Of a stretch of 64,000 nucleotides of DNA, positions 18,535 to 55,454 are shown in pieces (positions within the stretch are counted from its first letter, which is position 1; each line of letters starts with the position of its first letter). Origin of the DNA: Ignavibacteriaceae bacterium (lineage in GTDB: Bacteria; Bacteroidota; Ignavibacteria; Ignavibacteriales; Ignavibacteriaceae); contig JARLHC010000111.1 of the NCBI GenBank assembly GCA_031292455.1, forward strand, positions 1-64,000, given 5' to 3'. The position numbers and the translations under genes are program-made. The notes under the pieces were generated by a model. It did not search any database and was not told where the DNA came from. It saw only the letters and a program-made list of their open reading frames with translations.

Positions 18535-19890
18535 ATGAGTATCATTCATTACATAAGGTATATTAAGCCTCAGAGAATTTATTCAAGAAGATTATTCCTT
18601 CAGTGGTTCAATTTTATTGAGAAATCACAATGGTGGACGAAAGAAGAGCTTTTTAACTACCAATGGAATAAAATAAAAGTGCTTTTAAATTATTCCTATA
18701 AAAATATACCCTATTATCAAAATATGTTTAAGGCTCTTGGTGCTTTTCCCGAAGACATTAAAACACTGAAAGATTTTCAAAAATTGCCTTATTTGACCAA
18801 AGAGATAGTAAAAGATCGGATTGAAGAATTATTACCCCCAAATTATAAAAATAAAAAAAATAACTTTAAATATTTTACTACTAGTGGATCTACTGGACAG
18901 CCACTTGGATTTTATTTACTTCCTATAAATGATATAATAGAAAATGCCTTTATGATTCAACAGTGGAGGAGGGTGGGTTTTAAAGAAAACCGGACTACAG
19001 TAATTTTGAGAGGTGAACCCATTAAGACCGATGGTCTGTTTTATAAACAAAGACTATCTGATACCTGGTATTTTTCATCGTTTCGGCTAACAAAATATAA
19101 TATAAAAATTTATATAGATAAGTTGAATAATTTAAGACCGGAATTTTTGCATGTCTATCCTTCCAGTTTAAATGTGCTGATAAACTTATTACTGGAATCA
19201 GGATTAAAGATTACTTTTTCTCCTACTGCCATTTTATGCGGATCGGAATCATTAAATGATTTTCAAAGGGAATTATTTCAAAAAGTTTTTAATACTCGGG
19301 TCTATCGCTGGCTGGGTTCGGCAGAGCAAACTACACTTGCAGGCGAGTGCGAAAGTTCTTTTAATTTGCATGCTTGGCCGCAATATAGTTACGTTGAATT
19401 ACTTAATGAAGATGGCCAGGAAGTAAAAGAATTTGGAGAGTCTGGTGAAATTATCGGAACCAACCTGCATAACTTTGCTACTCCCTTTATTCGTTATAAA
19501 AGTGGAGATATTGCAACTTATGCCGGAAACTCCTGCCGGAAATGCGGGAGACAATTTCTTATGTTCGACTCAATAAAAGGCAGAACTCAGGATATTGTTT
19601 ATTTAAGTGACCATTCTACTTTTCCTATTGGACCGGCAATATTTGGTATTCATGAAGATTATTGGTCACTTATAAATTTTATTCAAATTGTGCAGAATAT
19701 CCCTGGTGAAATAATAATTAAAATCGACACTAGAGCAGATAAAGAATTATTAATCCAAAAATTAACCCCTTTGTTTAATGCCAGATTTGGTAGGATTCTC
19801 AAATTCTCATTGGAATTTAGTTCAGATATGAAGAAAACAAAAAACGGAAAACATATCTTTTTAATTCAGAATTTAAAACCGGGATCTTGA
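18535..19890 (+). CDS. CapK / phenylacetate-CoA ligase-like adenylate-forming protein
   Basis: 451 residues. The P-loop block FTTSGSTGQPLGF lies near residues 115-127. A later segment, YRWLGSAEQTTLAGEC, occupies the place of the adenylation motif, and CRKCGRQF offers a Cys pair as in PaaK-like proteins. PaaK relatives in capsule and exopolysaccharide loci are called CapK and have no proven reaction; activation of an acyl group for attachment to a sugar is a plausible role. It starts 13 bp after the AsnB-like gene and its TGA overlaps the TTG start of the heparinase-fold gene. Family assignment strong, substrate unknown. Confidence 0.85.
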   Translation: MSIIHYIRYIKPQRIYSRRLFLQWFNFIEKSQWWTKEELFNYQWNKIKVLLNYSYKNIPYYQNMFKALGAFPEDIKTLKDFQKLPYLTKEIVKDRIEELLPPNYKNKKNNFKYFTTSGSTGQPLGFYLLPINDIIENAFMIQQWRRVGFKENRTTVILRGEPIKTDGLFYKQRLSDTWYFSSFRLTKYNIKIYIDKLNNLRPEFLHVYPSSLNVLINLLLESGLKITFSPTAILCGSESLNDFQRELFQKVFNTRVYRWLGSAEQTTLAGECESSFNLHAWPQYSYVELLNEDGQEVKEFGESGEIIGTNLHNFATPFIRYKSGDIATYAGNSCRKCGRQFLMFDSIKGRTQDIVYLSDHSTFPIGPAIFGIHEDYWSLINFIQIVQNIPGEIIIKIDTRADKELLIQKLTPLFNARFGRILKFSLEFSSDMKKTKNGKHIFLIQNLKPGS

Positions 19891-21887: not shown

Positions 21888-21891
21888 GATC

Positions 21892-24048
21892 ATGAAACAA
21901 ATATTTAAAAATACAGATGGGATAAAAGCCCATGAGGTACCTCTTCCCACCCAGGGGGAAAAGGAATTACTTGTTGCAGTTGAGGCTAGTGTAATCAGCA
22001 CTGGTACTGAAACTATGGATATGCGCCACAACAATTTGTCATTGCTTGAAAAAATTCAGGAAAAGAAATTACTACTCGATAAGGTAAAAAAGACGATTAA
22101 AGATAAAGGACTGGAAGTTACTTGGAATGCAATCAGACAGAGATTAAGTCCCGCCGAACAAGCATTGGTTTTTGAACCAATGGGTTATAGCAATTCTGGT
22201 ACTATTGTTGCAAAAGGCAGCTTAGTCAATGGATTTAATGTTGGTGACCGGGTTGCTTGTGCTGGAGCAGGAATAGCAGCGCATGCCGAATATGTTGCTG
22301 TTCCGGTAAATTTAGCAGTTAAACTTCCTGATAATGTCCCCTTTACATCAGCTGCATTTTCTACAATTGGTAGTATAGCTCTTCAGGGCATTAGAAGAGC
22401 GGATTTGTCTTTTGGCGAAACTGTTGTAATCACTGGGCTGGGACTTCTTGGTCTGATTGCTGTTCAGATTGCAAAAGCCTGGGGTTTAGTTGTTATCGGA
22501 CTGGATATTAACCCCGCACGTTTGGATTTGGCTAAAAAGATAGGTGCCGATTTTTGTTTTCGGGCCGATGATCCGTCTGTCGAAAACAATATCAGGGATA
22601 TAACAAATGGATACGGGGCCGATGCGGTTATAATATATGCCGCAACCAGAAGTTCTGATCCGGCAAATCAGGCACTTAAAATTTGTCGTCGAAAAGCACG
22701 GGTTGTAGTAGTAGGGGCTATAGGCATGGATTTGCAGCGCGATGCCATGTACATGAAAGAGTTGGATTTTGTTATGTCAACTTCATACGGTCCTGGTAGA
22801 TATGATAAATCATACGAGATGAATGGCATAGATTATCCAATAGGATATGTAAGATGGACAGAAAATCGGAATATGATGGAATTTGTTCGATTACTCTCTA
22901 ACGGTCAAATTGATATTCAGCCTCTTATTAGCAATACTTTTACAATAGATCAGGCTAACGAAGCTTATCAAAGCCTTGTTGAAAATCCGGGGCACAATAT
23001 TGCAAGCTTGTTTCTTTATCATCACGAAAATTATGAAGCACAGGTAAGTAAAAGCGAATTGTATCCAAGACCAATTCTGAAAGGGAAAATCAGGGTTGGC
23101 ATAATAGGAGCAGGTGGATTTGTGCAAAGTAACCACTTACCTAATATTTTAAAGCTGCCTGATTTATATGAGCTGGTTGCCATAGCCAACCGCACTCCGG
23201 CAGAAGCAAAAGCTGCGGGTGAAAAATATAAAACTCGATATATAACTACCGATTATAAACAGGTTTTAAACGATCCTGAAATTGATATGGTTGTAATAGG
23301 CACAAGACATAATCTCCATGCCGTTCAGGTAACCGATGCCATTAAAGCTGGTAAACATTTACTTGTAGAAAAACCTTTGGCCATGAATGAAGCAGAACTT
23401 TGTATGATTCAGGATGCGTTTAATGAAAATCCTTCAATTCATGCAACAATCGGTTTTAATAGAAGATATTCTCCGTTAACCCAGAAAGCAAAAAATGTAA
23501 TTAATAAGCATAACCATCCGGTTGTAATAAATTATCGTATAAATGCTGGCTTCTTCCCGCCGGATATTTGGATTCAGGATTTGGAAGAAGGTGGGGGAAG
23601 AATTATAGGTGAAGTATGTCACTTTATTGATCTGGTAGGTTACCTGGCCGGAAGTGAAGTTAGCAATATTCAAACATCACATATTCCTGTTAATGGAAAA
23701 AATGTCAAATCTGAAGATAATATAATAATAACACTTTCATTTAAGAACGGATCAATTGGAGTAATCACCTACGTCTCAATTGGTGGAAAATCAATGGAGA
23801 AAGAAAGAATTGAAATATTCAGTAATAGTTGTTCCATGGTAATAAATGATTTTAAAGAACTTCAAATGTTTAATTCTGACGAAAAAGATATTAAGTTAAA
23901 AGAAACTGATAAAGGACATTATCGGGAAATTGAGGAATTTGCAAAATGCCTTAAGGGTGAACATTCTCTTATCCTCCCCTTTACAAATGATTTAACAGTC
24001 ACCGGACAAACAATTTCTGTAATAAAGCAAATTCATGATCTGAATTAA
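21892..24048 (+). CDS. Bi-domain oxidoreductase: MDR alcohol dehydrogenase fused to Gfo/Idh/MocA dehydrogenase
   Basis: 718 residues. Residues 1 to about 380 are a medium-chain dehydrogenase: substrate domain with SVISTGTETMDM, then the NAD-binding fold with VVITGLGLLGLIAVQIAKAWG. From about 396 onward a second Rossmann domain begins (VGIIGAGGFVQSNHLP), followed by HLLVEKPLAMNEAE, typical Gfo/Idh/MocA text containing the EKP motif. Both halves appear intact. The fusion is known from polysaccharide loci and should oxidise, reduce or epimerise a sugar. It is immediately downstream of the heparinase-like gene and its TAATG stop/start junction couples it to the next glycosyltransferase gene. Confidence 0.9.
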   Translation: MKQIFKNTDGIKAHEVPLPTQGEKELLVAVEASVISTGTETMDMRHNNLSLLEKIQEKKLLLDKVKKTIKDKGLEVTWNAIRQRLSPAEQALVFEPMGYSNSGTIVAKGSLVNGFNVGDRVACAGAGIAAHAEYVAVPVNLAVKLPDNVPFTSAAFSTIGSIALQGIRRADLSFGETVVITGLGLLGLIAVQIAKAWGLVVIGLDINPARLDLAKKIGADFCFRADDPSVENNIRDITNGYGADAVIIYAATRSSDPANQALKICRRKARVVVVGAIGMDLQRDAMYMKELDFVMSTSYGPGRYDKSYEMNGIDYPIGYVRWTENRNMMEFVRLLSNGQIDIQPLISNTFTIDQANEAYQSLVENPGHNIASLFLYHHENYEAQVSKSELYPRPILKGKIRVGIIGAGGFVQSNHLPNILKLPDLYELVAIANRTPAEAKAAGEKYKTRYITTDYKQVLNDPEIDMVVIGTRHNLHAVQVTDAIKAGKHLLVEKPLAMNEAELCMIQDAFNENPSIHATIGFNRRYSPLTQKAKNVINKHNHPVVINYRINAGFFPPDIWIQDLEEGGGRIIGEVCHFIDLVGYLAGSEVSNIQTSHIPVNGKNVKSEDNIIITLSFKNGSIGVITYVSIGGKSMEKERIEIFSNSCSMVINDFKELQMFNSDEKDIKLKETDKGHYREIEEFAKCLKGEHSLILPFTNDLTVTGQTISVIKQIHDLN

Positions 24049-40208: not shown

Positions 40209-41819
40209 ATGAAGAGAATTATCCTCTTATTGTTTTTAACTTCAATTCCCGCTACTTATTCCCAGGTAATTTTTGTCCCTGTAGAAAATAATATTTATGA
40301 ATATTTGTCCGAACTTTCCATAAAAGGGATAATTTCCTTTAATGATGATATAAAGCCTCTTTCGCGCGATTACATTAGTGGTAAAATTCATGAATTGGAA
40401 AGTAAAAAAAAATATCTTACTGAAATTGAAATTGAAGAACTTGAATTTTATTCAAAGGAGTATTTCTTTGAACTAAAAAAATATAGTCAGGAAAAATCGG
40501 AAAGTATAACCGGTTTTTTTAATCTTAATGATGATAAGAGATTTAGAGCTTATACATATTATGATTCGCTTTTTTCGATTTTTGTAGATCCGATCTTGGG
40601 ATATAATCTAAAATCACATGACATTAAAAATCATAGTTGGAACGGATTGAACCTCTTTGGTTCTATAGGACCAGACATATCATTCAACTTGAATTTTAAA
40701 GATAATCATGTCAGCAATCTTATTCAGGCAAGAAATGCATTTTCAAACTCTACTGGTATCGGTTTTTTTGCTGGAAGTGATTATGATGAAGTAAATGGAA
40801 ATCTGACCTTTAGTTGGAAGTGGGGTGACTTTTCACTGGGTAAGGATTATTTTGTTTGGGGAAGCGGACAAAGCGGTCAGATAATATTATCAGAAAAAGC
40901 TCCATCTTTTCCGTTTATTAAACTAAGGGTTTTTCCTGTATCTTGGCTGGATTTTACTTATTTCCACGGGGTTTTGAGTTCAGGAGTAATTGACTCGAGT
41001 ACTATTAGAATTAATAAAAATCCATATCGTCCCCATAATGAACTTGTAGAAAAATATATGGCAGCTCATATTATTACTGTTAGACCTTATTCAAACTTCA
41101 ATATTTCATTAGGAGAATCCGTCGTTTATAGCGATCGGTTTCAACCAATTTATTTAATTCCGGTTTTATTTTTTCGTTTGGTTGACCATTACCAGGGTTT
41201 TACAGATGCAAGTGGTGGCAATGCTCAATTATTCGCCAATCTTAGTTACAAAAATTCATATTTAAATAGTGAAATTTATTCTACTTTATTTATCGATGAA
41301 TTGACATTGACTAGTTATTTAAAGGGGAAGAATGCACCTAAGGCAGTGGCTTATACAATAGGAACTCTGTTTATCGATCCTTTCATAAGGGATATTAATA
41401 TTAACTTGGAATATACCAAAATTGATCCTTATGTTTATTTTCATGAGGATGACGCACAGCAATATACCAATCGCAATTATCAAATGGGACATTGGATAGG
41501 TGGAAACAGTGATCAGGTTCATTTCTCAATGACAAAAAAGCTTGCAAGAGGTCTGAACTTATGCCTGTCTTATGACTATATTAGGAAAGGTCATTCACCT
41601 GTTCTGGGAGAAATCCCATATCAGCCACAGGATAGTTTTCTATTCGGTTTAAGGACAAATTACAAGTTCATAAATACTTCTCTTAATTATGAATTGATAA
41701 ATGATTTTTTTGTAAAAGTTGGATATAATTGGGAGTCAATTGATAAGGAAATCATTTCCAATGTTTTTACCTCTGATAAGGATAATTATTTCACATTTTC
41801 GATAAATTATGGTCTTTGA
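40209..41819 (+). CDS. Capsule assembly Wzi-family outer membrane protein
   Basis: 536 residues with a signal peptide (about residues 1-19, ending SQ). The pattern of alternating hydrophobic residues and aromatic-ending strands through the length suits an outer-membrane beta-barrel. Early text NNIYEYLSELSIKGIISF plus the central GKDYFVWGSGQSGQIILS region resemble Wzi-like proteins of this bacterial group, which anchor exported polysaccharide on the cell surface. Its place next to WbpM and Wzc agrees. The family is poorly conserved, so the call is moderately firm. Confidence 0.75.
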   Translation: MKRIILLLFLTSIPATYSQVIFVPVENNIYEYLSELSIKGIISFNDDIKPLSRDYISGKIHELESKKKYLTEIEIEELEFYSKEYFFELKKYSQEKSESITGFFNLNDDKRFRAYTYYDSLFSIFVDPILGYNLKSHDIKNHSWNGLNLFGSIGPDISFNLNFKDNHVSNLIQARNAFSNSTGIGFFAGSDYDEVNGNLTFSWKWGDFSLGKDYFVWGSGQSGQIILSEKAPSFPFIKLRVFPVSWLDFTYFHGVLSSGVIDSSTIRINKNPYRPHNELVEKYMAAHIITVRPYSNFNISLGESVVYSDRFQPIYLIPVLFFRLVDHYQGFTDASGGNAQLFANLSYKNSYLNSEIYSTLFIDELTLTSYLKGKNAPKAVAYTIGTLFIDPFIRDININLEYTKIDPYVYFHEDDAQQYTNRNYQMGHWIGGNSDQVHFSMTKKLARGLNLCLSYDYIRKGHSPVLGEIPYQPQDSFLFGLRTNYKFINTSLNYELINDFFVKVGYNWESIDKEIISNVFTSDKDNYFTFSINYGL

Positions 41820-41939
41820 ATAATATCGAGGTTAAGTTTAAGATTAAAACCAATTTCCCCTTTTTTGATTTATTTTGCCTTAATTGGTATATTTATTCTC
41901 ATTTTTTTCTAAGTTTAGATATTATGGAGAAAAGATAGT

Positions 41940-42449
41940 TTGAAAAAAACTTTAATTTTATCATTTTTTATTATTTTCCCAATTTTCATCTCCGCGCAGA
42001 CTAACGATTTACAATTGGGAAGCGGGATGAATAAACTGGGAATTCAACAAGGGGGATTCTTTGATTGTTCTGACCCTTCGTCTTTAAATATTAAGGTATC
42101 TGTTTGGGGATATGTAAGATATCCAGGCAGATATATTATTCCCGTTTACAGTAAAGTTAATGATCTTCTTTCCTATGCTGGGGGTCCTACTGAGGATGCC
42201 CGTTTGGAAGACATGAGAATTGTTAAAACCGATAGCATCAATTCCAAACAAATAATATATAATTTGAATTTTAAAGATTACCTCATGGATCCAAAAATCT
42301 CAAGTGATAGTTCTATGCAGACTTTAAAAGCTGGTGATGTTTTGCTGGTTTCAGGGTACCCAAGATTTTATTTACGTGATTATATTGGTACAATTTTATC
42401 CGTTATTTCGGTTCTAATTTCTTTTACAATTTTGGTTAGGCAAAAATGA
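41940..42449 (+). CDS. Small SLBB-domain polysaccharide export protein
   Basis: 169 residues. Start is TTG at 41940, supported by a GGAGA at 41926-41930 nine bases upstream; the ATG at 41924 is out of frame and soon closed. A signal peptide (ends near ISAQ) is followed by an SLBB/beta-grasp domain, VSVWGYVRYPGRYIIPVYSKVNDLLSYAGGPTEDA, and a C-terminal membrane helix (YIGTILSVISVLISFTILV). Full-length Wza-type exporters also have a Poly_export domain, which is absent here. It overlaps the Wzc gene by 4 bp, so it likely works with that protein. Confidence 0.85.
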   Translation: MKKTLILSFFIIFPIFISAQTNDLQLGSGMNKLGIQQGGFFDCSDPSSLNIKVSVWGYVRYPGRYIIPVYSKVNDLLSYAGGPTEDARLEDMRIVKTDSINSKQIIYNLNFKDYLMDPKISSDSSMQTLKAGDVLLVSGYPRFYLRDYIGTILSVISVLISFTILVRQK

Positions 42450-44668
42450 GCGAATATTCAGAAAAAGAATTTGATAGCGAAAACTCTTCCAGAAGTTTTA
42501 AAGATTTATTAAATCTGGTTCGAAATGATCCATATCCTGTCTTTATTATTATTTTTAGCTGCTTGATTATCTCTATTGTCTTCGCATTACAATATAGAGA
42601 TATATATAGATCTACTGCATCTTTGAAAATATCAAAACCGAAGGGAGGGGTCCTTGATGGTTCTCTATCACCTGAACTTCAGGGACTTACAGATGATAGA
42701 TTTATACTTACCGAAATTGAAATTATGAAAAGCAGTACTGTCCGTAAAAACGTTGCACAAGCTTTATATGACAGCATTAAATCAGTTGGAACACCTGACA
42801 GCTTCATGATAGGATTTGATCATTCATTCCATATAACTAAGAATGAAAAGAAGATATCTATTGGAGACATTTCTAAAAATCTTGAATATTCTGTAATTAT
42901 TGAACAAAGAAAGGGAATGAATATTGTAGATATTTCGGTCGAATCTCCATCTCCCTTTAGTGCAGCTTTGATTGCAAATATTTATGCAAATGTTTACAAA
43001 AGATTTAACCTTGAAGTAAATAGAGATCAACTGACTATGGTTAAGGATTTTCTCTTGACTCATGTGCAGGAGAAACAACAGGCACTTAAAGAATCTGATT
43101 CCTCCTTGAGTCAATTTCAGACTAAAAATGAAATTATTTCATTAGATGATCAAACTAAAACACTGATTTCTCAATTATCCAGTTTCGAAGCTCAAAGAGA
43201 TGGTGCCAGTATAGAACTAGCAGCAACAGATAAAGCCCTGGCTCAATTGGAGGATGAATTCCATCAACAGAACCCACAGGTTCAGTCATATATTGATGCA
43301 CAGACTAATCAACCTTATGTCCTTGGTTTACAGGAACAAATAGCCAAGCTACAAATCCAAAAAGACCTTGTTTCTAAAAATGGAGGCAACGATCAAATTT
43401 CTAAACCATCTGATGAACAGATTGATATACTTAAGGCTAAGTTAAAAGCGAAAACGGATGTTATGAAACAGTCTATATTTGCGACTAATCCTGAAGCTAT
43501 CAAAGATCTTTATGCAAAAATTCTGGATGCAAAAGTTAAGAAAAGAGGATTATCCACTCAGCTTAATCTTCTTAATGATATTTTAAAAAAATACGAAGCA
43601 CAATTTAACAAATTACCTATAACAACAATCAAGTATGCACAGCTTCAGAGAAAAAGAGAAGCTTCGGAAAAGTTATTCTCTTTACTTGAAGAAAAATATC
43701 AGGAAGCATTAATCAATGAGCAATCTCAACCAGGTAATATTTTTATTTTTGATAATGCCGTAAAGTCCAGTATTCCATCGAAACCCAATCGTTCATTAAT
43801 AATCCTGGTGGGTTTGATGGCGGGTATATTCGCAGGATTTGGATACGTATTTATTAAAGATTATTTCGACGATAGGATTAAATCTCCTGAAGAACTTGAA
43901 AAACGTAATATTAATATTCTTGCATGGGTTCCTGTAATTGAAAATATGGGAGCAAATGGGAAAGGAACCGGAGAATTTATTGTTGCTGAAAAACCGGATG
44001 CGATGCCGAGTGAAGCATTCAAAGCTCTTCGTACTAGAGTTCAGTTCTCTAAAGTCGGAAAAAATATTTTGAAGACTATACTTGTGACTTCAGCTGCCCC
44101 TGGTGAAGGAAAAACTGTTATAAGTGTCAATTTGGCGGGTGCATTTGCTCAGGATAATAAAAAAACCTTGTTGATTGATGCCGATTTAAGAAAACCCAGA
44201 ATTCATAGTTTATTTAATCAACTTAAATCTCCTGGATTTACGGATTATTTTTTTGAAAATGCAACCTTGGATGAAATTATTCGGCCTTCACAATTAGAAA
44301 ATTTGCATATTATAACAACAGGTACTTTGCCACCCAATCCTTCTGAATTGCTTGGTTCGAAAAGAATGGCAGATTTCTTGAATGAAATGCGTGATAGATA
44401 TGATGTCGTTATACTTGATTCTGCACCCATAATAGCTGTAACAGATACGGAAATATTATCAAGATTGGTTGACGCAACTATGGTAGTGGTTTCAACAGAT
44501 TCTACTCTTCTGAACTTAGTAGAAAAAGCTGTGCAATTGATAAAGAATGATTATTCGCTATTTATAGGAACAGTACTTAATAAATTCTCTTACAAAGCCG
44601 GATATGGTCCCTACTATAAATATTATTATTATTATTCCGATAAAAAAGAGACGAAGAGTATTTCTTGA
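42446..44668 (+). CDS. wzc: Polysaccharide co-polymerase with tyrosine autokinase domain (Wzc-like)
   Basis: 740 residues. A first transmembrane helix lies near residues 30-50, a long coiled-coil-rich periplasmic region follows (KEKQQALKESDSSLSQFQ and others), then a second helix near 450-470 after the PSIPSKPNRS-type proline-rich block. The cytoplasmic BY-kinase has Walker A TSAAPGEGKT near 549-558, Walker A-prime LLIDADLRKPR and Walker B YDVVILDSAP. The tail is a tyrosine cluster, YGPYYKYYYYYSD, the autophosphorylation site. It controls polymer length and export. Start overlaps the SLBB gene (ATGA). Confidence 0.95.
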   Translation: MSEYSEKEFDSENSSRSFKDLLNLVRNDPYPVFIIIFSCLIISIVFALQYRDIYRSTASLKISKPKGGVLDGSLSPELQGLTDDRFILTEIEIMKSSTVRKNVAQALYDSIKSVGTPDSFMIGFDHSFHITKNEKKISIGDISKNLEYSVIIEQRKGMNIVDISVESPSPFSAALIANIYANVYKRFNLEVNRDQLTMVKDFLLTHVQEKQQALKESDSSLSQFQTKNEIISLDDQTKTLISQLSSFEAQRDGASIELAATDKALAQLEDEFHQQNPQVQSYIDAQTNQPYVLGLQEQIAKLQIQKDLVSKNGGNDQISKPSDEQIDILKAKLKAKTDVMKQSIFATNPEAIKDLYAKILDAKVKKRGLSTQLNLLNDILKKYEAQFNKLPITTIKYAQLQRKREASEKLFSLLEEKYQEALINEQSQPGNIFIFDNAVKSSIPSKPNRSLIILVGLMAGIFAGFGYVFIKDYFDDRIKSPEELEKRNINILAWVPVIENMGANGKGTGEFIVAEKPDAMPSEAFKALRTRVQFSKVGKNILKTILVTSAAPGEGKTVISVNLAGAFAQDNKKTLLIDADLRKPRIHSLFNQLKSPGFTDYFFENATLDEIIRPSQLENLHIITTGTLPPNPSELLGSKRMADFLNEMRDRYDVVILDSAPIIAVTDTEILSRLVDATMVVVSTDSTLLNLVEKAVQLIKNDYSLFIGTVLNKFSYKAGYGPYYKYYYYYSDKKETKSIS

Positions 44669-45084: not shown

Positions 45085-46278
45085 ATGAATAAAAAAATAG
45101 CATTAATAGCATTCCCGCTATTCTTTATACTTGCAGCTACTAGGAGTATTGAGAATATTAAATGGATATCATATTCAGCCCCACTTTTTTATTTATTTTT
45201 TATTTTTGACGGATTAAAAGACTTAAAAAATAAGGAACTTAGGTTATCCTTACTACTGATTACTACTTTCGGTCTTTGGGCTATGGTTACTTCATGTTGG
45301 TCTACCTACCCCCGCGAAAGCTATATAAGAAGTTTAGTTTTTATGGTATCATCCTCAAGTTTAATCCTGGGTGGATATTGTTGGGTTAAATATTTTAGAG
45401 AAAAGGAATTCGGTTTCTTAATCCCCTTGAATATCCTGCTTTTACTAGTCTCATTATTTTCTTTAATGACAAAAATACCTTTTGATTATTGGGCTGGGTA
45501 TGGTTATGGTCTTAAAAGCTTTTGGGGTCATCAAAACATTCTTGCTAGTTTAATTATTTTTTCATTACCTGGAATCTTTATGCTTCCGGTTAAAGATAAA
45601 AAAATCAATATTTTAATAACTTCCTTTCTTTTAATTCTTAATATTTACATACTTATTCTGACTCATTCCAGAACGTCATTGGCTGTAATAATATTATCTG
45701 CTTTCCTTTTTGCATTGCTCTCAAAACGCATAAAAATCTTCGCTATAATAATGTTGATATTTCTAACTCTTATAATTACCTATATGGTAAATAATAATTT
45801 TCAAAGTCATATAAAGAATTATTTGTTTAAAACCGAAATCTCCTTGTTGGATAGAAAAATGCCAGTGATTTCGGCAAGCTATGAAGCAGCAGTAATTGGG
45901 GGTTGGAAAGGCTTAGGATTTGGGGTTAGTGATAATACAGTCTTAAGTAATCTTTTGTTTAATGTCCATTATCATTTTGAAGGGGTTAGATTAGTCAGAG
46001 AAAAAGCAGTTAGTATTTATGCTCTAATTGAAGAGACTGGTTGGATTGGGTTGATTCTATTTCTTTTTTTTGTATTGTACCTGCTTTATTTGACAGTTAA
46101 AACGTATCTGAATACTATGAGTTGGAGTTCCGTTATGATGGTTTGTCTGCTGATAGGAATGAGCCTGCATGCACAGTTAGAAGGTTGGTGGTTAGGTGTA
46201 GGTTCAGTACAGTTTCCAATATTTATGGCATTAGCAGGAATAACAATAGGGAAAATTGGTATTAAAGCAGAACAATAA
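45085..46278 (+). CDS. O-antigen ligase/polymerase family membrane protein (Wzy_C)
   Basis: 397 residues with about ten transmembrane helices. Features include YGLKSFWGHQNILASLIIFSLP and ILTHSRTSLAVIILSAF, the hallmark region of the Wzy_C family, then a periplasmic loop and AVSIYALIEETGWIGLILFL. These proteins either ligate O-antigen to lipid A-core or polymerise repeat units. A separate Wzy candidate exists at 14098, so this one may be the ligase or the polymerase for a second glycan. A TACTTTTG sequence at 46310-46317, after the gene, could be a -7 promoter element for the next genes. Confidence 0.8.
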   Translation: MNKKIALIAFPLFFILAATRSIENIKWISYSAPLFYLFFIFDGLKDLKNKELRLSLLLITTFGLWAMVTSCWSTYPRESYIRSLVFMVSSSSLILGGYCWVKYFREKEFGFLIPLNILLLLVSLFSLMTKIPFDYWAGYGYGLKSFWGHQNILASLIIFSLPGIFMLPVKDKKINILITSFLLILNIYILILTHSRTSLAVIILSAFLFALLSKRIKIFAIIMLIFLTLIITYMVNNNFQSHIKNYLFKTEISLLDRKMPVISASYEAAVIGGWKGLGFGVSDNTVLSNLLFNVHYHFEGVRLVREKAVSIYALIEETGWIGLILFLFFVLYLLYLTVKTYLNTMSWSSVMMVCLLIGMSLHAQLEGWWLGVGSVQFPIFMALAGITIGKIGIKAEQ

Positions 46279-46371: not shown

Positions 46372-47427
46372 ATGAATATCCTATTCTTAACGGACTATAT
46401 GTTGTATGTCTCTGGAGTATCGAAACATTTATTTTATTTGCTATCAGAATTATCCAAAGATGAGGCGTATAATATTATTCTGGTTTGCCCGGGTGGAGAT
46501 TTTATAGATGAATTCAAAAAATTAAAAATTACTGTAATTGAAATTGAAGAAATATCGCATCAAAAGCGTTCGTATTTAAATTTTCTAAAATCCGTATTAT
46601 CTATTTATAGCATAGTTAAAAAAAATAAAATTGAAATAATCCATTCCCACACGCATTATTCTGCTAATATTGCATGGTGGGTTTCAAAAATAACGAAATG
46701 TATTACGATTCAAACCATTCACGGTGTAATACCTTCAGGAGGTAGATTCCCACATTTTATAGCAGATTATTTTATTATAGTTAATAAAAATTCAATTAAA
46801 CACCTGATGTCGAATAGAAAAAAGAAGGAGAGAATATTCTTTGTGAATCTTGGTATACCCATACCAGAAAAACACCTTAAGGATAATAGTGAAATAAAAA
46901 TATTATTCGCTTCAAGGCTAGTCCCTGAGAAAGGTGGAGATATTTATCTTGACGCAATCGCATTAGCAAAAGATAAACTAATTGTAAAAAATTCGTTTGC
47001 TATGGCTGGCGAAGGGGTGTCTGAAAATGAGTTAAGAAAACAAATAACTGATTTAAAAATACAAGTAAGTTTCTTGGGTAAAGTTGAAAATATTTATGAC
47101 TATCTAAAGGACTCGCATATATTTATATTTACTTCAAGGTATCAACTGGAAGGATTTCCTTTAACAATTGTTGAGGCAGCCTTAAATGGGAATTTAATAA
47201 TTACTTCAGATTTTGCCAGCTTAAAGGAGATATTTCAAGAAGATATTGACTGCTTGGTTTTCCATAATAATGATTCCATACAACTTTCTGAAAAAATTAT
47301 TCTTGCAGTTAATAATTATAAGGATTATTCCGAAATGATTGTTCAAGGTATAGAAAAAGCAAAAAATAATTTTTCTATAAGTAAAATGTTGTATGAATTA
47401 AAGCAAGTATATCAGAATGTTACATAA
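46372..47427 (+). CDS. Glycosyltransferase family 4
   Basis: 351 residues. N-terminal ILFLTDYMLYVSGVSKHLFYLLSEL and EIIHSHTHYSANIAWW, then FASRLVPEKGGDIYLDAI and RYQLEGFPLTIVEAALNGNLIITSDFASLKEI in the donor domain define a GT4 enzyme of full length. The last codons overlap the next gene by 11 bp. It belongs to a set of four consecutive glycosyltransferase genes (46372-50100) that likely build another part of the glycan. It resembles the GT4 at 48271 in its SHTHY/SHHRY motif. Confidence 0.87.
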   Translation: MNILFLTDYMLYVSGVSKHLFYLLSELSKDEAYNIILVCPGGDFIDEFKKLKITVIEIEEISHQKRSYLNFLKSVLSIYSIVKKNKIEIIHSHTHYSANIAWWVSKITKCITIQTIHGVIPSGGRFPHFIADYFIIVNKNSIKHLMSNRKKKERIFFVNLGIPIPEKHLKDNSEIKILFASRLVPEKGGDIYLDAIALAKDKLIVKNSFAMAGEGVSENELRKQITDLKIQVSFLGKVENIYDYLKDSHIFIFTSRYQLEGFPLTIVEAALNGNLIITSDFASLKEIFQEDIDCLVFHNNDSIQLSEKIILAVNNYKDYSEMIVQGIEKAKNNFSISKMLYELKQVYQNVT

Positions 47428-48274
47428 TATACCTATTACTGTTCTGATGACAACTTACAACTGTGGTCAGTTTATTAAGACCTCAATAAATAGTATTCTA
47501 AATCAAAACTATAAGAACTTTGAATTATTAATTATTGATGATGGTTCTGATGATAACACTGGAGATGTTATAAAAGAGGTGAATAGTGACAAAATAAGAT
47601 ATATCTGGTTGGAACATATTGGCAGAAGTGCAGCATTAAATTATGGACTTAAAGTTGCCTCATTTGAATGGGTCGCCTTAATGGATGCAGATGACCTTGC
47701 AGCCCCTGAAAGGCTTGAAAAAGAAATAAGTTTGATTAATGGGAATAATCAGAATATAATCTTTTCGGATTCTGTTTATTTTATGAACAATAAAATTCAA
47801 TTTCTCAATATGGTTAATCCTGAAAAAGAAGATATGAAAAGAAAAATTGAATTAAGAGGGCATATATGCAATTCAAGTGTTGTATATAACAGGAATTTTA
47901 TTCTGGAAAATGGAGGATATAATGAAAAGCTTGTACATTCGGAGGATCATGAGCTATGGATTAGGTTACTTAATAAAGGCAACTTTATACATGTGAATGA
48001 CTGGTTAATATTTATGAGAATTAGGAAAAATTCCTTAAGTACCAAAGTTAACGATAGCCCTCCTCGGAAAATATCAATATTTGATGGCAGTAACAATCCA
48101 ATGATAGAAAAAAAAATTGGTATTTTAAGAATTGGCAGAGAGTATATGTTCAGAAAAAAAGTTAAGTTAAGAGTGAAGTATTTTTTATGGAAATATTGGA
48201 ATTATAAAGCATATATCAGTTTATCGGAAAAATTAAGTGATTTAAGTAAGTCTGGAGCCGTTTTTTCTCAATGA
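47417..48274 (+). CDS. Glycosyltransferase family 2
   Basis: 285 residues. The GT-A fold opens with ITVLMTTYNCGQFIKTSINSILNQ and LLIIDDGSDDNT for the nucleotide, then VALMDADDLAAPERLEKE, holding the metal-binding acidic motif. HSEDHELWIRLL matches the later catalytic-base region. It overlaps both neighbours (11 bp upstream, 4 bp downstream), implying tightly linked expression. Cytoplasmic transfer of one sugar is predicted; specificity unknown. Confidence 0.9.
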   Translation: MLHNIPITVLMTTYNCGQFIKTSINSILNQNYKNFELLIIDDGSDDNTGDVIKEVNSDKIRYIWLEHIGRSAALNYGLKVASFEWVALMDADDLAAPERLEKEISLINGNNQNIIFSDSVYFMNNKIQFLNMVNPEKEDMKRKIELRGHICNSSVVYNRNFILENGGYNEKLVHSEDHELWIRLLNKGNFIHVNDWLIFMRIRKNSLSTKVNDSPPRKISIFDGSNNPMIEKKIGILRIGREYMFRKKVKLRVKYFLWKYWNYKAYISLSEKLSDLSKSGAVFSQ

Positions 48275-49353
48275 TAAAGACAAAAAAATGTGCAATACTT
48301 CATTTACAGATAGAATTAAATAAGACATGTGGAGTTTCCAGGTCAATTCTACGAATTATTAAAAACAGTCATAATTATGAACATCATGTGATTTCATTAG
48401 GGGGAGATGCCTTAGATAGATTCGATTTATTCAATTTGAAGATTATTAAAGCCAATAGGAATTCACTATATGGTACTCTCAAAATATTTTTTACTACATT
48501 GAAATATATAAAACAGAATCATATACAAATTGTTCATTCCCATCATCGTTATTTTGATCTCTTGGCATCTCTGCTAAAAACAATTACTTCAATTCGAACA
48601 GTCACAACTGTTCATAGTAAAGTATATAAAAAGAAATTATTTAGTTACAAAAGTGAAAAATTAATTGTTGTAAGCAATACGATAAAGTTACACTTGATAC
48701 AATATTTTAATATAAATCCTTCAAAAATATACTTGATAAATAATTTTGTTGATAAAAATGAAATTAGTATAACTCAAAAAAAAGAGGAAATATTTTCGGA
48801 ATTAGGTCTTAGTCCGGATACGCCTCTTATAGGTTATTTCGGCAGGCTTGATATAAAAGAAAAGGGAGTTGATATTCTGCTCGAAGCTCTGCAAATGATC
48901 ATAGTCGAGATGCCTTCGGTTTTTCTAATATTGGCTGGAAATGGAATTGATGAACAATTGTTAAAAAAGATTGCTTTAAATAAAAAACTACCTGCCAGAT
49001 TTTTAGGAAATATCAGCAATATCTGGAATTATTTAAATGCTTGTGATATTGTTGTTCTTCCTTCAAGAGTTGAACCATTTAATCTGGTTATGATTGAGGC
49101 CGGATTAATAAGTAAAACCGTAATCGGGGCAAGAGTAGATGGAATTGCAGAAACTATCAAGGATCGCTTGACCGGAATTTTATTCATTAAAGAAAATGCA
49201 ATTGATCTCAAAAACAAAATTATCGAGCTATTGAAAGATAAAAATTTAATGGATAGTTTAAGGCAAAATCTTCATGAAGAGGTTATGTGTGAATTTACTT
49301 CTGAAATAATTATTCCCCGAATTGAAAATTTTTATAATCAGCTTCTTCTATAG
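48271..49353 (+). CDS. Glycosyltransferase family 4
   Basis: 360 residues. GT4 features: CAILHLQIELNKTCGVSRSI at the N-terminus, IVHSHHRYFDLLASLL, then GYFGRLDIKEKGVDILLEAL and SRVEPFNLVMIEAGLISKTVIGARVDGIAETI, the donor-binding segment. Start overlaps the preceding stop by ATGA. Specificity cannot be told. It is followed 15 bp later by the GT26 gene. Confidence 0.87.
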   Translation: MIKTKKCAILHLQIELNKTCGVSRSILRIIKNSHNYEHHVISLGGDALDRFDLFNLKIIKANRNSLYGTLKIFFTTLKYIKQNHIQIVHSHHRYFDLLASLLKTITSIRTVTTVHSKVYKKKLFSYKSEKLIVVSNTIKLHLIQYFNINPSKIYLINNFVDKNEISITQKKEEIFSELGLSPDTPLIGYFGRLDIKEKGVDILLEALQMIIVEMPSVFLILAGNGIDEQLLKKIALNKKLPARFLGNISNIWNYLNACDIVVLPSRVEPFNLVMIEAGLISKTVIGARVDGIAETIKDRLTGILFIKENAIDLKNKIIELLKDKNLMDSLRQNLHEEVMCEFTSEIIIPRIENFYNQLLL

Positions 49354-49368
49354 GAACTACCCAGAAAA

Positions 49369-50100
49369 ATGATATATAATATTTTAGGAATAAATATTTT
49401 ATTTGCAAATTATAATGACATTTTGGAGAAAATATTTTCGGATGGTATAAGGACAATTGCTTGTGCTAATCAGTATTATCTAAATTTAGCTTATGAGAAT
49501 AAAGAATATAAAAATAATTTAAACTCATTTGACCTCGTTTTCCCTGACGGGGTAGGGCTAAAATGGGCAGCAGGTTTTGCAGATCAACATGAAGTAATTA
49601 AAAAGCTTGAAAGAATTAACGGTTCTGATATATATCCTGAAATAATTAATAGGATTTTTAATGAAAATTTATCTTTGTATATTTTAGGTGATTCTCAAAC
49701 TGTTCTTGATAATGCATTGAAAAATATTAAGGATAGATTCCAAGGGATAAGAATTGCCGGCAATCATAATGGCTATTTTGACCTTTTTAATGTAAAAATA
49801 ATTGAGGATATAAATTCTTCAAATCCATTTTTCCTATTGGTGGGTTTGGGAGCTCCAAGACAAGAAGAATGGATTAATCGGTGGAAAGATAAACTAAATG
49901 CAAAAAAAATAGTTGCTGTCGGAGGTGGTTTGAGGGTAATAGCCGGGGATAGGAAAAGGGGTCCTCTGTGGGTCAGAAATATCGGACTTGAGTGGTTAGT
50001 TCGTCTTATAACTGAGCCAATAAAAAACTGGAAAAGATATATAATTGGTATACCATTATTTATTTATAGAGTATTAATTCAAAAAATTCAAAAATTATGA
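49369..50100 (+). CDS. WecG/TagA/CpsF family glycosyltransferase (GT26)
   Basis: 243 residues, the normal size. Blocks TIACANQYYLNLAYENKEYK, FDLVFPDGVGLKWAAGF and the later LLVGLGAPRQEEWINRW are typical GT26 text; the DG and PRQE motifs are conserved. WecG and TagA transfer ManNAc-type sugars to the lipid-linked GlcNAc, which agrees with the wecB-like epimerase at 6679. Its stop overlaps the start of the large PorU-like gene, linking glycan and surface-protein genes in one transcript. Confidence 0.92.
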   Translation: MIYNILGINILFANYNDILEKIFSDGIRTIACANQYYLNLAYENKEYKNNLNSFDLVFPDGVGLKWAAGFADQHEVIKKLERINGSDIYPEIINRIFNENLSLYILGDSQTVLDNALKNIKDRFQGIRIAGNHNGYFDLFNVKIIEDINSSNPFFLLVGLGAPRQEEWINRWKDKLNAKKIVAVGGGLRVIAGDRKRGPLWVRNIGLEWLVRLITEPIKNWKRYIIGIPLFIYRVLIQKIQKL

Positions 50101-53100
50101 ATAAAAATATATTAACTGCAGCTATCATTATTATTTTCTTGTCATCACTATCCGCTCAACAGAAGAACTTCAAAAATAATACAATAAATGATGTGAAGGG
50201 GATAGAAGTTAAAGGAAATTCTTTTTATCTAAGTTTGACTGACGGGAACTATAAATACAATGATACACAGAAAGGGAAATTTATTATAAGGGATTTTTCT
50301 GACTATACCAATTCTTCGAAAGCTGGTGAGTACAAACTTCCAGGTAGAACTCTCCTTATTGCTATTCCTCCCGAATCAAAACCGGAATTTAATATTGTTG
50401 ATTCAAAGGAACAAATTCTAAATAATATCATACCAGAAATAAATCCGAAAACGACAGGTAAGGACGGTTCTTTAAATTTAATAGAAGCAAAGATTAAAAA
50501 GGGATCTGGGATTCAGCCTATATTGGAAATATCCGGTTATACTTGGTTCAGGAATTACTATTGTGCTGTTATTAGAATAAATGATGTCAGTTTTAATGAA
50601 ATTTCAAGTCAATTGATTATTAACAAAGAAATTAAATTGGAAATCAGGTTTCCAGGAAATATTAACATAGTTACAAACTCACCGGTTCCTGAGGAAGATA
50701 ATGAAGTAAACAATTTGATATCTAACTCTCAAATGGCAGGGCAGTTTAGAAGTAAATCTAAATTCATAACTACTGATACAACAGGGAACTGGTTTCATTA
50801 TAATCAACCATATATTAAAATCGGTACTGGGTATGAAGGCCTTTTTAGAATTAATAAGAACGATCTTGCCCAGTTGGGTGTTCAAACTGCATCAATAGAT
50901 CCTAGAACATTTCAGTTGTTTGAGTCTGGTAATGAACAAAATATTTTTGTAAGCAACGATACGAGTGGAGTCTTTAGTGATTCTGATTATATTGAATTTT
51001 TTGGAACCAGGAATTTTTCTAAGATTTCTCCCACAATAATCAATTCTGATTTTGAAGAGTATAACGAATACCTTAATAGATATACAGATACAACAATTTA
51101 TTTTCTAACATGGGGAGATACAAGGGGGAAAAGAGCCTATTCAAGCGCAACTCTGGTTTCTGGAATTACCGATACTCTTAATTATTTCTCTTGTATTATA
51201 CATCACGAACCCAACCTGATGCTGCAGTATCTTAATAGCACAGATGAAGTCGCCAACCAGACTCCCAATTGGTATAAAAATAAATCATGGTACTGGCAAT
51301 TTTTACAGGTTTCGCCAGCTTATTTTTTTGATAATTATCAGGTACAAGATATTTATCCTGGAAAACCAGTAAAAGCATTTTTTAAACTGGTCAGCGCCGC
51401 CTCAAGCAGAGCGATAGATTCACACAATATTACTTTTAGTATTAATGGCGTCTTACTGGACTCTCAGTCTGTTGATCTTAATGCACAAGTAGTGTTAAAG
51501 GATAATAATAAGATCACTTCGGATAATTTAATAACTGGGTCAAACTTTTTGACTCTTCATAATTATCCCAATGGGACCGATCCTGATTATTTGGCTTTGG
51601 ATTGGTCAGAATTGCAATATCCTAAGATTCTCAACCTTGCTAATGACTCTCTTTATTTTGAATTTAAGGATAATTTCTCTAATCAAATTTCCATTATCAA
51701 AGTGGGGAATATACCATTATCCTCTAATAATTATGAAATATTTAAAGTCAGACCATTCCTGAAAAGAATTATCAATGCTCAGAATATTGGCGGAAATCTG
51801 ATCTTTTCAGATACTATCAATACGAATGATGCATACGTAATAATAAATCCGGCTAAAATAGCCAAACCAAAATTTTATTATGAGAAGAATTTTGTTAATT
51901 TAAGACAAAGTAGACAAGCCGATTATATTGCTGTAACCCATCCGTTATTTATTGCTGCTGCGCAGAATTATATTAAAGCTATGGCTAAGCTTTATTCTGT
52001 AAATCCTATTTTAATAAATGTGAATGATATATTTGATGAATTTGCCTTTGGTTATCCTTATCCTCAGGGCATTAAAGATTTTATCGGTAATTCTTTGCAG
52101 AACTGGCAGGCGCCACTCCCTTCTTATTTGGTGTTGTTAGGAGACGCTGATTATGATTATAAAAAAAATATATTTAAATCAACTGGTGTAGTTGGAGGGG
52201 GAAATTATATACCATCCTACGGCTCGCCGGTTAGTGACATTTGGTATACAGTTTTTAGTGACACGATCCCTCTTCCACAAATGAAGGTTGGGAGATTACC
52301 AATAAACAGTTCTTCAGATCTTGATTTCTATTTATCCAAAGTCCAGAATAATTTTAATGCACCTTTTGGTGATTGGAATAAACATTATTTGTTCTTTTCA
52401 GGCGGAGATCCCGAATTACCTTATCAGCTGTTATCTTTTAAGGGAGTTAATGATTCCATTATATCGCAATATGTAAGGCCAAAACCATTAGCTGGAAGTA
52501 GTGTACATTTCTACAAGACCCTTGATCCGCCGACTAATTTTGGCCCTTATACCGCAGAACAGTTCAATAGCGCTATTTCGAGCGGAGCAGTATTCATTTC
52601 TTATCTCGGCCATAGTGGAACTTCTACATGGGATAACGGAATTGCTTTCATCAATCAGCTCGAAAATGATGTGAATCGGAATCCGTTAATGACTGATTTC
52701 GGATGCTCAACAAATAAATTTGCAGAGCCGGATATTGTATGCTTTGGAGAAAATTTTATTCTTTCAGGCCAGGCTATTGGGTATATAGCAAATTCTTCAT
52801 TAGGATTTACTTCAACTGCGCTTGCTGCACCGATTGATTTCTATTCTTCATTATTCCAGGATTCAATTTACCAGGTAGGGGAGGCGCATTTAGCAGCAAA
52901 GAATAAAATGTTTAATTCATTTGGTGTATCTGATGTATTTAAAATATTCTCTTATAATAATACTTTATTGGGCGATCCTTTAGTGAGAATTAAAATTCCA
53001 GCTAAACCAAATTTTTCTATAAGTTCTTCCGATATAATAATTCAGGATAAATTTATCAACGAAACGATAGATTCTATTAAAGCATTACTGGTTATTAATA

Positions 53101-55454
53101 ATTACGGCATATCTATTAACGATTCTGTAAGAATAGACATAAGTCATACACTGAATAATAGCACAATTCAGAGCCAGTCATTTTATATTAATATTCCTGA
53201 TTATAAAGATACAATTTCAATATGGTTAAAAACGGGTAAACTTTCTGGAGAGCATACTTTGACTGTTACATTGAATAGTGATAACAGGATACCTGAGATA
53301 TATACTTCTGATAATTCTGCAATTTATAAATTTCTAGTTGCATCAGTCGAGGTTAAATTTACCCTCGAACAGAAAATAGAAAACCCTTCTATTAACAGGA
53401 TAAAATTGCTTAATCCTCCTCTTTTACAGTTGCCTGGGTTCAACTATGTATATCAAATTTCTAAGGATGAAAATTTCACTTATCCGGCTGGAAGCATTGC
53501 CTCAGCGCAAACATTTTATACAGCTTTACCCTTACCTACTCTTAATCAGAGTCAGAGATATTGGTTTAGGATTAAAGTTGACGGATTAGGATCATTTTAT
53601 TCGGAGCCAGTTTCTTTTTTTAATGGAGGAACATCAAAATTTTTATTGAATGATGATGTTGCTTTTAATAATCAAAAAAAAGATAGTGTCCTATATCTTA
53701 ATGGGCATCTTATTTTGGGCGATACAGTTAGAATTTCCGTCGTTTCGGCTGGTGCCCTTGCTGGTCCCTTATGTACAATATCAAAGAATGGGGTTAATTT
53801 ATTGTCGAACTCATATTTCAGTGGAATTGGTATTGTTGTATTTGATCCGGTGACCCTTATTCAGGACACAACAAACTGGTATAATTTATTCGGTAATCCT
53901 GAGGCGGTTACTCAGCTGACTAATCTAATAAATTCTATTCCTACGGGAAAGATTGTTGCTATTGGGGTTTGTGATGATGCTAAGAATAATATGACTGATA
54001 GTCTCATAAATGCTATTAAAACTTTAGGGAGTACCAAGATAGATCAATTAGCATTTCACAGTTCCTGGGCTCTCATAGGAACTAAAGGTGCCATACCTGG
54101 GAATGTTATTGAACAGTTGCATGATCCTAGTAATAAAATTCCTATATCTATCGATACCTTGATTAACAAACAGGTAATAAAGGGCAATTTTATAACCAAT
54201 CTGATTGGTCCGGTTTCAGTATGGAATAATTTAATTGTTAAACAAAACCTACCTTCAGGTACTGACATAAAATTTAAATTGCTTGGAATACAGAAGGATA
54301 GTGTGACAATTGATACCTTGGGTTATATTCCATTAGTTGATTCTGTATCACTTGATTTTGTCGATGCTAAAAAATATCCTCATATAAAAATTGTCAGTGA
54401 ACTTAATCTCGGATCAGGAATCACTCCTCCCTCCATTAGTTATTTGGGAGTAAATTATGTCGGAATTCCTGAACTTGGTACAAATTACCAGGCAGTAACT
54501 CTATCTGCTGACACTTTTAATGTCGGGAAAACCGGTTCACTTAGTTTTTATGTTTATAATGCGGGTGACTTACAAGCTGATAGTGTTAAGGTTATTGTGA
54601 ACGAAGTAATGTCGGATAACTCCAATAGGCAGATTTATGAAACTGTGCTTGATACAATTTATGCTGAAAGCAGAAAGCAAATATCTGTAAACTATAGTCC
54701 CCTCAATGGTACTCGTGCCAGGGAATTTCTAATCCAGATCGACCCTGATAATAAAATTTATGAAATACATAAAGACAATAATATTTTTATTCAACCGTTT
54801 TTTGTAAAATCAGATACTTTGCCTGCTCAAATTAAAATAACATTTGATAATCAAGATCTTTTAAATGGGGATTTTGTTTCTTCAAATCCGGATATTAAGA
54901 TCGAACTAAATGACCCTACTATTAAAGCTATTACGGACACTTTTGCACTTGCCATTTTACTTAATAATAAACCAATTTTTTACAACGATCCTGCAGTAAC
55001 ATATGTTTTTAATAATTCGAATCCTAAAATGATTGTCCATTATAAGCCAAAACTTAATGAAGGATCATATTCGTTAACTGTTTTAGGGAAAGATGCTTAT
55101 GGCGTCCTTTTCGATTCTTCTGGAACAAAAAAAGATTTTGTAGTATCCAAAGATGCAAAAATTCTTTATGCTTATAATTATCCTGATCCTATGGCTAAGG
55201 ATACCTATTTTACTTTTAAACTCACACAGCTCCCGGATGAATTAAGGATAAATATTTATACGGTTGCTGGAAGATTAATTAAACAGATAACAAAAACCTC
55301 TTCTGAGCTTAATTATGATTTTAACCGGATTTACTGGGATGGAAAAGATGCGGACGGGGATGTTCCAGCTAATGGAGTTTATTTTTATAAAATTATCATA
55401 TCCAAAGATGGCCAAAAAGAAAATATTACTCAAAAAATGGCTATTATCCGCTAA
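50097..55454 (+). CDS. PorU-like C25 peptidase with ILEI/FAM3-like domain and T9SS C-terminal domain
   Basis: 1785 residues with a signal peptide of about 20. A region near 220-310 (YEGLFRINKNDLAQLG, DSDYIEFFG) resembles the N-terminal part of PorU. The C25 catalytic pair is visible as H839 in SYLGHSGTSTW and C870 in TDFGCSTNKF. Around 1180-1345 comes a segment with GIGIVVFDPVTL, NSIPTGKIVAIGVCDDA and FHSSWALIGTKG that matches the ILEI/FAM3 pattern. A CARDB-like region follows near 1470-1580, then a T9SS domain from about 1690. PorU attaches T9SS cargo to A-LPS. The start overlaps a glycosyltransferase gene (ATGA). Assignment as the true PorU is probable, not proven; a large gingipain-like protease is the alternative. 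Confidence 0.8.
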   Translation: MNKNILTAAIIIIFLSSLSAQQKNFKNNTINDVKGIEVKGNSFYLSLTDGNYKYNDTQKGKFIIRDFSDYTNSSKAGEYKLPGRTLLIAIPPESKPEFNIVDSKEQILNNIIPEINPKTTGKDGSLNLIEAKIKKGSGIQPILEISGYTWFRNYYCAVIRINDVSFNEISSQLIINKEIKLEIRFPGNINIVTNSPVPEEDNEVNNLISNSQMAGQFRSKSKFITTDTTGNWFHYNQPYIKIGTGYEGLFRINKNDLAQLGVQTASIDPRTFQLFESGNEQNIFVSNDTSGVFSDSDYIEFFGTRNFSKISPTIINSDFEEYNEYLNRYTDTTIYFLTWGDTRGKRAYSSATLVSGITDTLNYFSCIIHHEPNLMLQYLNSTDEVANQTPNWYKNKSWYWQFLQVSPAYFFDNYQVQDIYPGKPVKAFFKLVSAASSRAIDSHNITFSINGVLLDSQSVDLNAQVVLKDNNKITSDNLITGSNFLTLHNYPNGTDPDYLALDWSELQYPKILNLANDSLYFEFKDNFSNQISIIKVGNIPLSSNNYEIFKVRPFLKRIINAQNIGGNLIFSDTINTNDAYVIINPAKIAKPKFYYEKNFVNLRQSRQADYIAVTHPLFIAAAQNYIKAMAKLYSVNPILINVNDIFDEFAFGYPYPQGIKDFIGNSLQNWQAPLPSYLVLLGDADYDYKKNIFKSTGVVGGGNYIPSYGSPVSDIWYTVFSDTIPLPQMKVGRLPINSSSDLDFYLSKVQNNFNAPFGDWNKHYLFFSGGDPELPYQLLSFKGVNDSIISQYVRPKPLAGSSVHFYKTLDPPTNFGPYTAEQFNSAISSGAVFISYLGHSGTSTWDNGIAFINQLENDVNRNPLMTDFGCSTNKFAEPDIVCFGENFILSGQAIGYIANSSLGFTSTALAAPIDFYSSLFQDSIYQVGEAHLAAKNKMFNSFGVSDVFKIFSYNNTLLGDPLVRIKIPAKPNFSISSSDIIIQDKFINETIDSIKALLVINNYGISINDSVRIDISHTLNNSTIQSQSFYINIPDYKDTISIWLKTGKLSGEHTLTVTLNSDNRIPEIYTSDNSAIYKFLVASVEVKFTLEQKIENPSINRIKLLNPPLLQLPGFNYVYQISKDENFTYPAGSIASAQTFYTALPLPTLNQSQRYWFRIKVDGLGSFYSEPVSFFNGGTSKFLLNDDVAFNNQKKDSVLYLNGHLILGDTVRISVVSAGALAGPLCTISKNGVNLLSNSYFSGIGIVVFDPVTLIQDTTNWYNLFGNPEAVTQLTNLINSIPTGKIVAIGVCDDAKNNMTDSLINAIKTLGSTKIDQLAFHSSWALIGTKGAIPGNVIEQLHDPSNKIPISIDTLINKQVIKGNFITNLIGPVSVWNNLIVKQNLPSGTDIKFKLLGIQKDSVTIDTLGYIPLVDSVSLDFVDAKKYPHIKIVSELNLGSGITPPSISYLGVNYVGIPELGTNYQAVTLSADTFNVGKTGSLSFYVYNAGDLQADSVKVIVNEVMSDNSNRQIYETVLDTIYAESRKQISVNYSPLNGTRAREFLIQIDPDNKIYEIHKDNNIFIQPFFVKSDTLPAQIKITFDNQDLLNGDFVSSNPDIKIELNDPTIKAITDTFALAILLNNKPIFYNDPAVTYVFNNSNPKMIVHYKPKLNEGSYSLTVLGKDAYGVLFDSSGTKKDFVVSKDAKILYAYNYPDPMAKDTYFTFKLTQLPDELRINIYTVAGRLIKQITKTSSELNYDFNRIYWDGKDADGDVPANGVYFYKIIISKDGQKENITQKMAIIR

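Follow-up and report, generated by a model that had tools for sequence, protein, structure and literature searches.

A FAM3-like domain in PorU2-type sortase-like proteins of Ignavibacteria and its association with a polysaccharide operon

A domain of the ILEI/FAM3 family lies within a PorU2-type C25 sortase-like protein whose gene closes a polysaccharide operon of an Ignavibacteriaceae bacterium, and related domains recur in PorU2-type proteins throughout the class Ignavibacteria and in other families of Bacteroidota. The window, i.e. the whole stretch of DNA analysed here, comprises 64,000 nucleotides (contig JARLHC010000111.1, positions 1 to 64,000). The protein, 1785 aa long, is encoded by ORF 50097-55454 on the + strand and belongs to the PorU/PorU2-type C25 peptidases. 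Its features are as follows.

50097-55454, + strand: PorU2-type C25 sortase-like protein (NCBIfam NF052324 and Foldseek match to 6za2)
50097-50159, + strand: probable Sec signal peptide MNKNILTAAIIIIFLSSLSAQ (read by eye)
51924-52988, + strand: Peptidase_C25 domain, residues 610-964 (PF01364, E 2.9e-52)
52611-52613, + strand: codon of catalytic His839 (alignment of ILEI-bearing proteins)
52704-52706, + strand: codon of catalytic Cys870 (same alignment)
53637-54119, + strand: ILEI/FAM3-like domain, residues about 1181-1341 (PF15711 core, own profile and AF2 model)
55179-55406, + strand: T9SS type A C-terminal sorting domain, residues 1695-1770 (TIGR04183, 25.3 bits, cut-off 23)

The original prediction had recognized the domain from motifs at residues about 1180-1345. 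All of these motifs are present in the ORF in the claimed order, and the coordinates were correct to a few residues, as an iterated profile stretches the domain to approximately residues 1181-1341. The proposed ILEI/FAM3 identity was borne out by PF15711, which matched with E 7.2e-21 and 74.9 bits (cut-off 27) over residues 1242-1332 (window 53820-54092), spanning the entire model (positions 1-90 of 90). When PDB sequences were searched with phmmer, FAM3C, FAM3B and FAM3A were retrieved, then POMGnT1, and a 41-sequence profile matched FAM3B (8e-26), FAM3C (3e-25), POMGnT1 (3e-22) and TMEM2 (5e-19). The expected FAM3 fold was also recovered by structure prediction. An AF2 model of window 53502-54251, built from 41 homologues, reached a mean pLDDT of 92.7, and its top PDB match was the N-terminal sugar-binding (stem) domain of POMGnT1 (5ggl, E 3e-10, TM 0.80 by target length), followed by FAM3C (5lc2, TM 0.76), FAM3A (0.73) and FAM3B (about 0.71). 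TMEM2 matched more weakly, and nothing significant came after it. Matches to viral models were largely tail fibre, hinge connector and receptor-binding proteins. A chance or misread motif is ruled out by the PF15711 and profile matches together with the predicted fold.

As for the host protein, its description as a PorU-like C25 peptidase held true, except that it represents a PorU2-type second sortase while PorU proper is encoded elsewhere in the genome. The best NCBIfam match was PorU2 (NF052324, 387.8 bits), followed by PorU (NF033707, 265.7 bits); both scores lie under the curated cut-offs of 450 and 420 bits, respectively. ILEI-bearing relatives within the class likewise score below the NF052324 cut-off, at about 310-415 bits. 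The ORF shares the N-terminal and C25 architecture of NF052324. The His839-Cys870 dyad is intact, and both residues are kept in 67/67 ILEI-bearing proteins alignable over that region. The predicted model of residues 238-1353 (pLDDT 86.8, pTM 0.73) contains weak linkers, one at approximately model residues 850-880 and another at 940-970, where the ILEI domain starts. With this model, Foldseek returned the PorU crystal structure 6za2 as the top match (E 1e-37), then the gingipains RgpB and Kgp. The closest solved fold is thus that of P. gingivalis PorU, with which the protein also shares the His-Cys dyad, the type A C-terminal domain and the presumed removal of cargo signals. However, PorU (about 1330 aa in the class) lacks the ILEI domain, and the genome's own PorU adjoins PorV.

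That true PorU is located on contig C68 (969.6 bits), with PorV directly after it (255 bits, cut-off 250); ORF 50097-55454 as the canonical PorU is therefore ruled out. SprA/Sov is also encoded in this genome, in fragmented form (774 bits), and a propeller match to the PorZ family was obtained. Since true PorU, PorV, SprA/Sov and a PorZ-family match are all present, ORF 50097-55454 is, as judged from its sequence and the gene inventory, an accessory sortase-like protein alongside the canonical T9SS set. A second PorU2-type gene of this genome (L058, contig C95, 110012-113761) lies beside a divergent WecG gene and a GT4 gene; it ends with the contig at residue 998, ahead of the ILEI position, and is grouped with the ILEI carriers in the tree described below. 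It is thus uncertain whether ORF 50097-55454 is the sole ILEI-bearing PorU2 copy, because the L058 protein stops at the contig end before the domain would be reached. The genome also encodes a PorU-like paralogue of the 1.9-kaa type (L057:8392-12828, contig C39), which is probably inactive as a peptidase because Ser replaces both catalytic His and Cys.

The domain had been regarded as a local insertion, and this view did not survive the survey of homologues, which revealed a general PorU2 feature across the class and in other Bacteroidota families. PF15711 occurs in 188 of the 294 class genomes and in 77 of 296 genomes sampled from the phylum, mostly in open frames of approximately 1500-1950 aa. 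The alignment that seeded the genome scan comprised nine sequences. The named relatives with the domain are Ignavibacteriales, Melioribacteraceae and Stygiobacter electus, and in most class genomes its position within the PorU2-type protein is the same. A related but more diverged region is present in those PorU2 proteins of other families whose scores lie above the NCBI cut-off. Many of them match the ILEI profile individually (E 1e-4 to 1e-11), and a profile of 16 over-cut-off PorU2 regions, including some regions that had no individual ILEI match, aligned with the ILEI profile at probability 98.8 and E 7e-17. Restriction of the domain to the source lineage is ruled out by the class, phylum and over-cut-off PorU2 matches. 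Two short PorU2 forms, L107 and L108, lack the region. In an unrooted C25 tree built with a quick method, canonical PorU and the 1.9-kaa paralogues formed one branch devoid of ILEI (support 96), while ORF 50097-55454 fell outside it among ILEI-bearing rows, and ILEI was present nearly everywhere else. From this, we infer that the domain dates far back in the PorU2 lineage. It goes undescribed in NF052324 because this model covers the N-terminal part only (879 positions).

Several variants of this architecture were observed. Two PorU2 proteins of approximately 2400 aa (L043:169-7365 and L062:4212-11393) contain two ILEI domains about 625 residues apart. At L035:10489-15640, PorU2 is distributed over three successive ORFs of 1155, 227 and 324 aa, and the second of these consists mostly of the ILEI domain; this may reflect frameshifts or real separate genes. 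At L128:11994-13751, an ILEI-type domain is fused to a phosphatidylserine decarboxylase-like protein that has no peptidase part.

The stem of POMGnT1 binds GlcNAc via Arg129, Asp179 and Arg207, and FAM3C, FAM3A and a worm domain were also found experimentally to bind sugars (PMC9802357). The carbohydrate-binding modules of streptococcal phage tails have the same fold (PMC9437275). In the profile alignment of 41 family members, the three POMGnT1 positions correspond to the following codons.

53820-53822, + strand: Ser1242, in place of Arg129 (Arg in 17/41 members)
53973-53975, + strand: Asp1293, in place of Asp179 (Asp in 29/41)
54057-54059, + strand: His1321, in place of Arg207 (Arg in 27/41)

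Asp1293 is therefore the one sugar-contacting residue of the three retained in ORF 50097-55454, while Ser and His occupy the other two positions. The complete triad, which marks proven binders and is not required for ILEI family membership, occurs in 11 of 41 members and is incomplete in 30. Within the nearest clade, the equivalents of Asp179 and Arg207 are almost always kept and Ala or Pro stands in place of Arg129. The nearest relative, L080, has Arg in place of Arg207; His at this site is exclusive to ORF 50097-55454. The best-conserved positions of the domain are buried residues and glycines. The domain thus shares its predicted fold and the Asp179 equivalent with the POMGnT1 stem and FAM3A-C (ILEI, PANDER), but these are animal proteins without a peptidase, and two of the three contacts differ. 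Sugar binding by the ILEI family of PorU2 proteins is plausible on these grounds, while for the copy in ORF 50097-55454 it is uncertain because two of the three residues are changed. The original prediction of a glycan-binding part gains support from the match to the POMGnT1 stem and from the position of the gene in a glycan operon, and is weakened by these substitutions.

The PorU2 gene is the last of a polysaccharide operon, preceded by these genes.

40209-44668, + strand: export genes, i.e. Wzi-like, SLBB (Wza-like) and Wzz/Wzc-like tyrosine kinase (domain matches)
45085-46278, + strand: weak Wzy/O-antigen ligase-like protein (PF04932, E 6.7e-05, below cut-off)
46372-47427, + strand: GT4 glycosyltransferase (PF00534, E 1.2e-28)
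47417-48274, + strand: GT2 glycosyltransferase (PF00535, E 2.5e-30)
48271-49353, + strand: GT4 glycosyltransferase (PF00534, E 1.6e-30)
49369-50100, + strand: WecG/TagA/CpsF glycosyltransferase (PF03808, E 1.3e-49)

The WecG-type gene and PorU2 share 4 bp (ATGA) at their stop and start, and in the class a WecG-type gene is usually found just before PorU2. Among 51 genomes of the order, ILEI and WecG were both present in 35, both absent in 11 and present singly in 5 (Fisher p 5e-7, ancestry ignored), and WecG was missing from 11 of the 13 genomes without ILEI. When both occurred, they were at most 7 kb apart in 33 of 35 genomes, which do not represent 33 independent events, as gene order is inherited. 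Of 28 ILEI loci of the class, 18 had WecG and 25 had any glycosyltransferase within the three genes upstream, versus 0 of 7 class C25 genes without ILEI. In other families, by comparison, WecG was upstream of 0 of 14 ILEI-bearing PorU2 loci and any glycosyltransferase upstream of 1 of 14; the WecG-PorU2 link is therefore a feature of the class only. The upstream neighbour of PorU2 in several of these other loci is PorV2 (547-567 bits). A PorV2 gene beside PorU2 was not found in the class, where the PorU2 gene is linked to WecG instead; the best PorV2-like match of the source genome lies elsewhere and below the cut-off.

Other neighbours deserve mention. Directly downstream of PorU2, a protein of approximately 220-260 aa with a T9SS-type C-terminus is encoded at L063:13023-13682, L047:15604-16272, L083:3536-4201, L037:3625-4347 and L099:12175-12963, exceeding the TIGR04183 cut-off in L063 and L047; it is absent next to ORF 50097-55454. 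At several of these loci, the next gene encodes a protein of about 450 aa with an outer-membrane-barrel-like end, and the two could possibly be a dedicated cargo and anchor. The gene of about 450 aa found downstream of PorU2 in relatives did not match any PorV model. Further upstream in the same polysaccharide region, window positions 16632-18521 and 19887-24048 encode an asparagine-synthase-type amidotransferase, a heparinase II/III-like protein and an ADH-GFO/IDH fusion. Amidotransferase homologues also occur near PorU2 in L038, L039 and L068, and a uronamide-making, WbpS-like role is conceivable for them.

PorU of P. gingivalis depends on PorZ, which binds A-LPS and presents it to this sortase (PMC8545088); PorU attaches the C-termini of cargo to a linking sugar through an amide bond (PMC7468200). 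For ORF 50097-55454 we lean, by a little, towards an accessory sortase of the T9SS that carries its own module for docking a glycan; family, fold, catalytic dyad, sorting domain, the occurrence of PorU, PorV and Sov, and the gene linkage are what the analysis established, and sugar binding, the identity of the glycan and conjugation by PorU2 are what we infer. PorU2 would be exported to the cell surface, where its His839-Cys870 C25 site would cut the C-terminal signal off T9SS cargo and PorU2 would then conjugate the cargo to polysaccharide. The FAM3/POMGnT1-stem-like domain, on a probably flexible linker behind the catalytic and Ig-like domains, would serve as a lectin-like docking module holding the glycan of the WecG operon near the active site. 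One PorU2 polypeptide would then do what PorZ does for PorU, i.e. bind and present the glycan, although PorZ is a separate beta-propeller protein with a fold unrelated to the ILEI domain. The sortase part is supported by the dyad, kept in all 67 alignable ILEI-bearing proteins, and by PorU and gingipains being the nearest folds. Docking is supported because the POMGnT1 stem, FAM3C and FAM3A bind sugars, because carbohydrate-binding modules of phage tails have the same fold and viral structural matches fall largely on tail fibres and receptor-binding proteins, and because the Asp179 and Arg207 equivalents persist in most of the family; an operon-derived glycan is supported by the co-occurrence and proximity of WecG and ILEI and by the upstream glycosyltransferases. 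Docking is weakened by Ser and His replacing Arg129 and Arg207 and by the scarcity of the full triad, and the operon-derived glycan by the confinement of the WecG link to the class. The PorZ-family match in the same genome also counts against this reading, and no genes for a linking sugar were identified.

The main rival is that the FAM3-like domain has lost sugar binding and is structural or docks proteins such as PorV2, cargo or the attachment complex, with PorU2 still a sortase or signal peptidase. The incomplete triads, the preferential conservation of buried and glycine positions and the canonical PorU2 genes of several other families that adjoin PorV2 rather than glycosyltransferases would fit such a role; we nevertheless consider it rather unlikely, given the retention of the Asp179 and Arg207 equivalents in most of the family and in almost all close relatives and the strong operon link to glycosyltransferases in the class. 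That PorU2 is a surface protease, releasing cargo or cutting its signal without conjugation and adjacent to the glycan operon through shared regulation or operon inheritance, seems improbable: C25 does include plain proteases such as the gingipains, and inherited gene order lessens the weight of the linkage, but two PorU models top all other NCBIfam matches, and WecG and ILEI come and go together. Recognition of foreign or host glycans (adhesion, nutrient targeting) in place of the own polymer, which the FAM3-type folds of phage adhesion proteins binding foreign cell-wall sugars might suggest, is very improbable, as the gene closes an operon that makes the polysaccharide of the cell itself and includes the genes to transport it, and start and stop codons often overlap there.

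The PF15711 match itself is a routine Pfam outcome, and PorU2 is an existing NCBI family. When open-licence literature was searched for PorU2, PorU paralogues and bacterial ILEI domains, nothing relevant on PorU2 and no PorU2 experiment was found, so that the FAM3-like domain as a hallmark of PorU2 and the WecG-PorU2 linkage both appear undescribed in that literature. Until now, PorU2 has existed only as a database family, named "putative type IX secretion system sortase PorU2", whose function was a guess. With its FAM3-like domain and the neighbouring WecG operon, PorU2 gains a testable hypothesis, namely which glycan is used and how it reaches the active site. A fold mostly familiar from secreted factors of animals and tail fibres of phages also gains a widespread host in bacteria, and such bacterial occurrence is in line with an old sugar-binding role of the FAM3 fold. 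Going further, and tentatively, Gram-negative bacteria might have in PorU2 a second class of sortase-glycan ligase that is self-contained. In it, a lectin of FAM3/POMGnT1 fold, fused to the transpeptidase, would choose a polysaccharide other than LPS (capsule or exopolysaccharide) that is dedicated to it and made by the WecG operon. If this were true, Bacteroidota would possess parallel routes of cargo anchoring, each with its own glycan.
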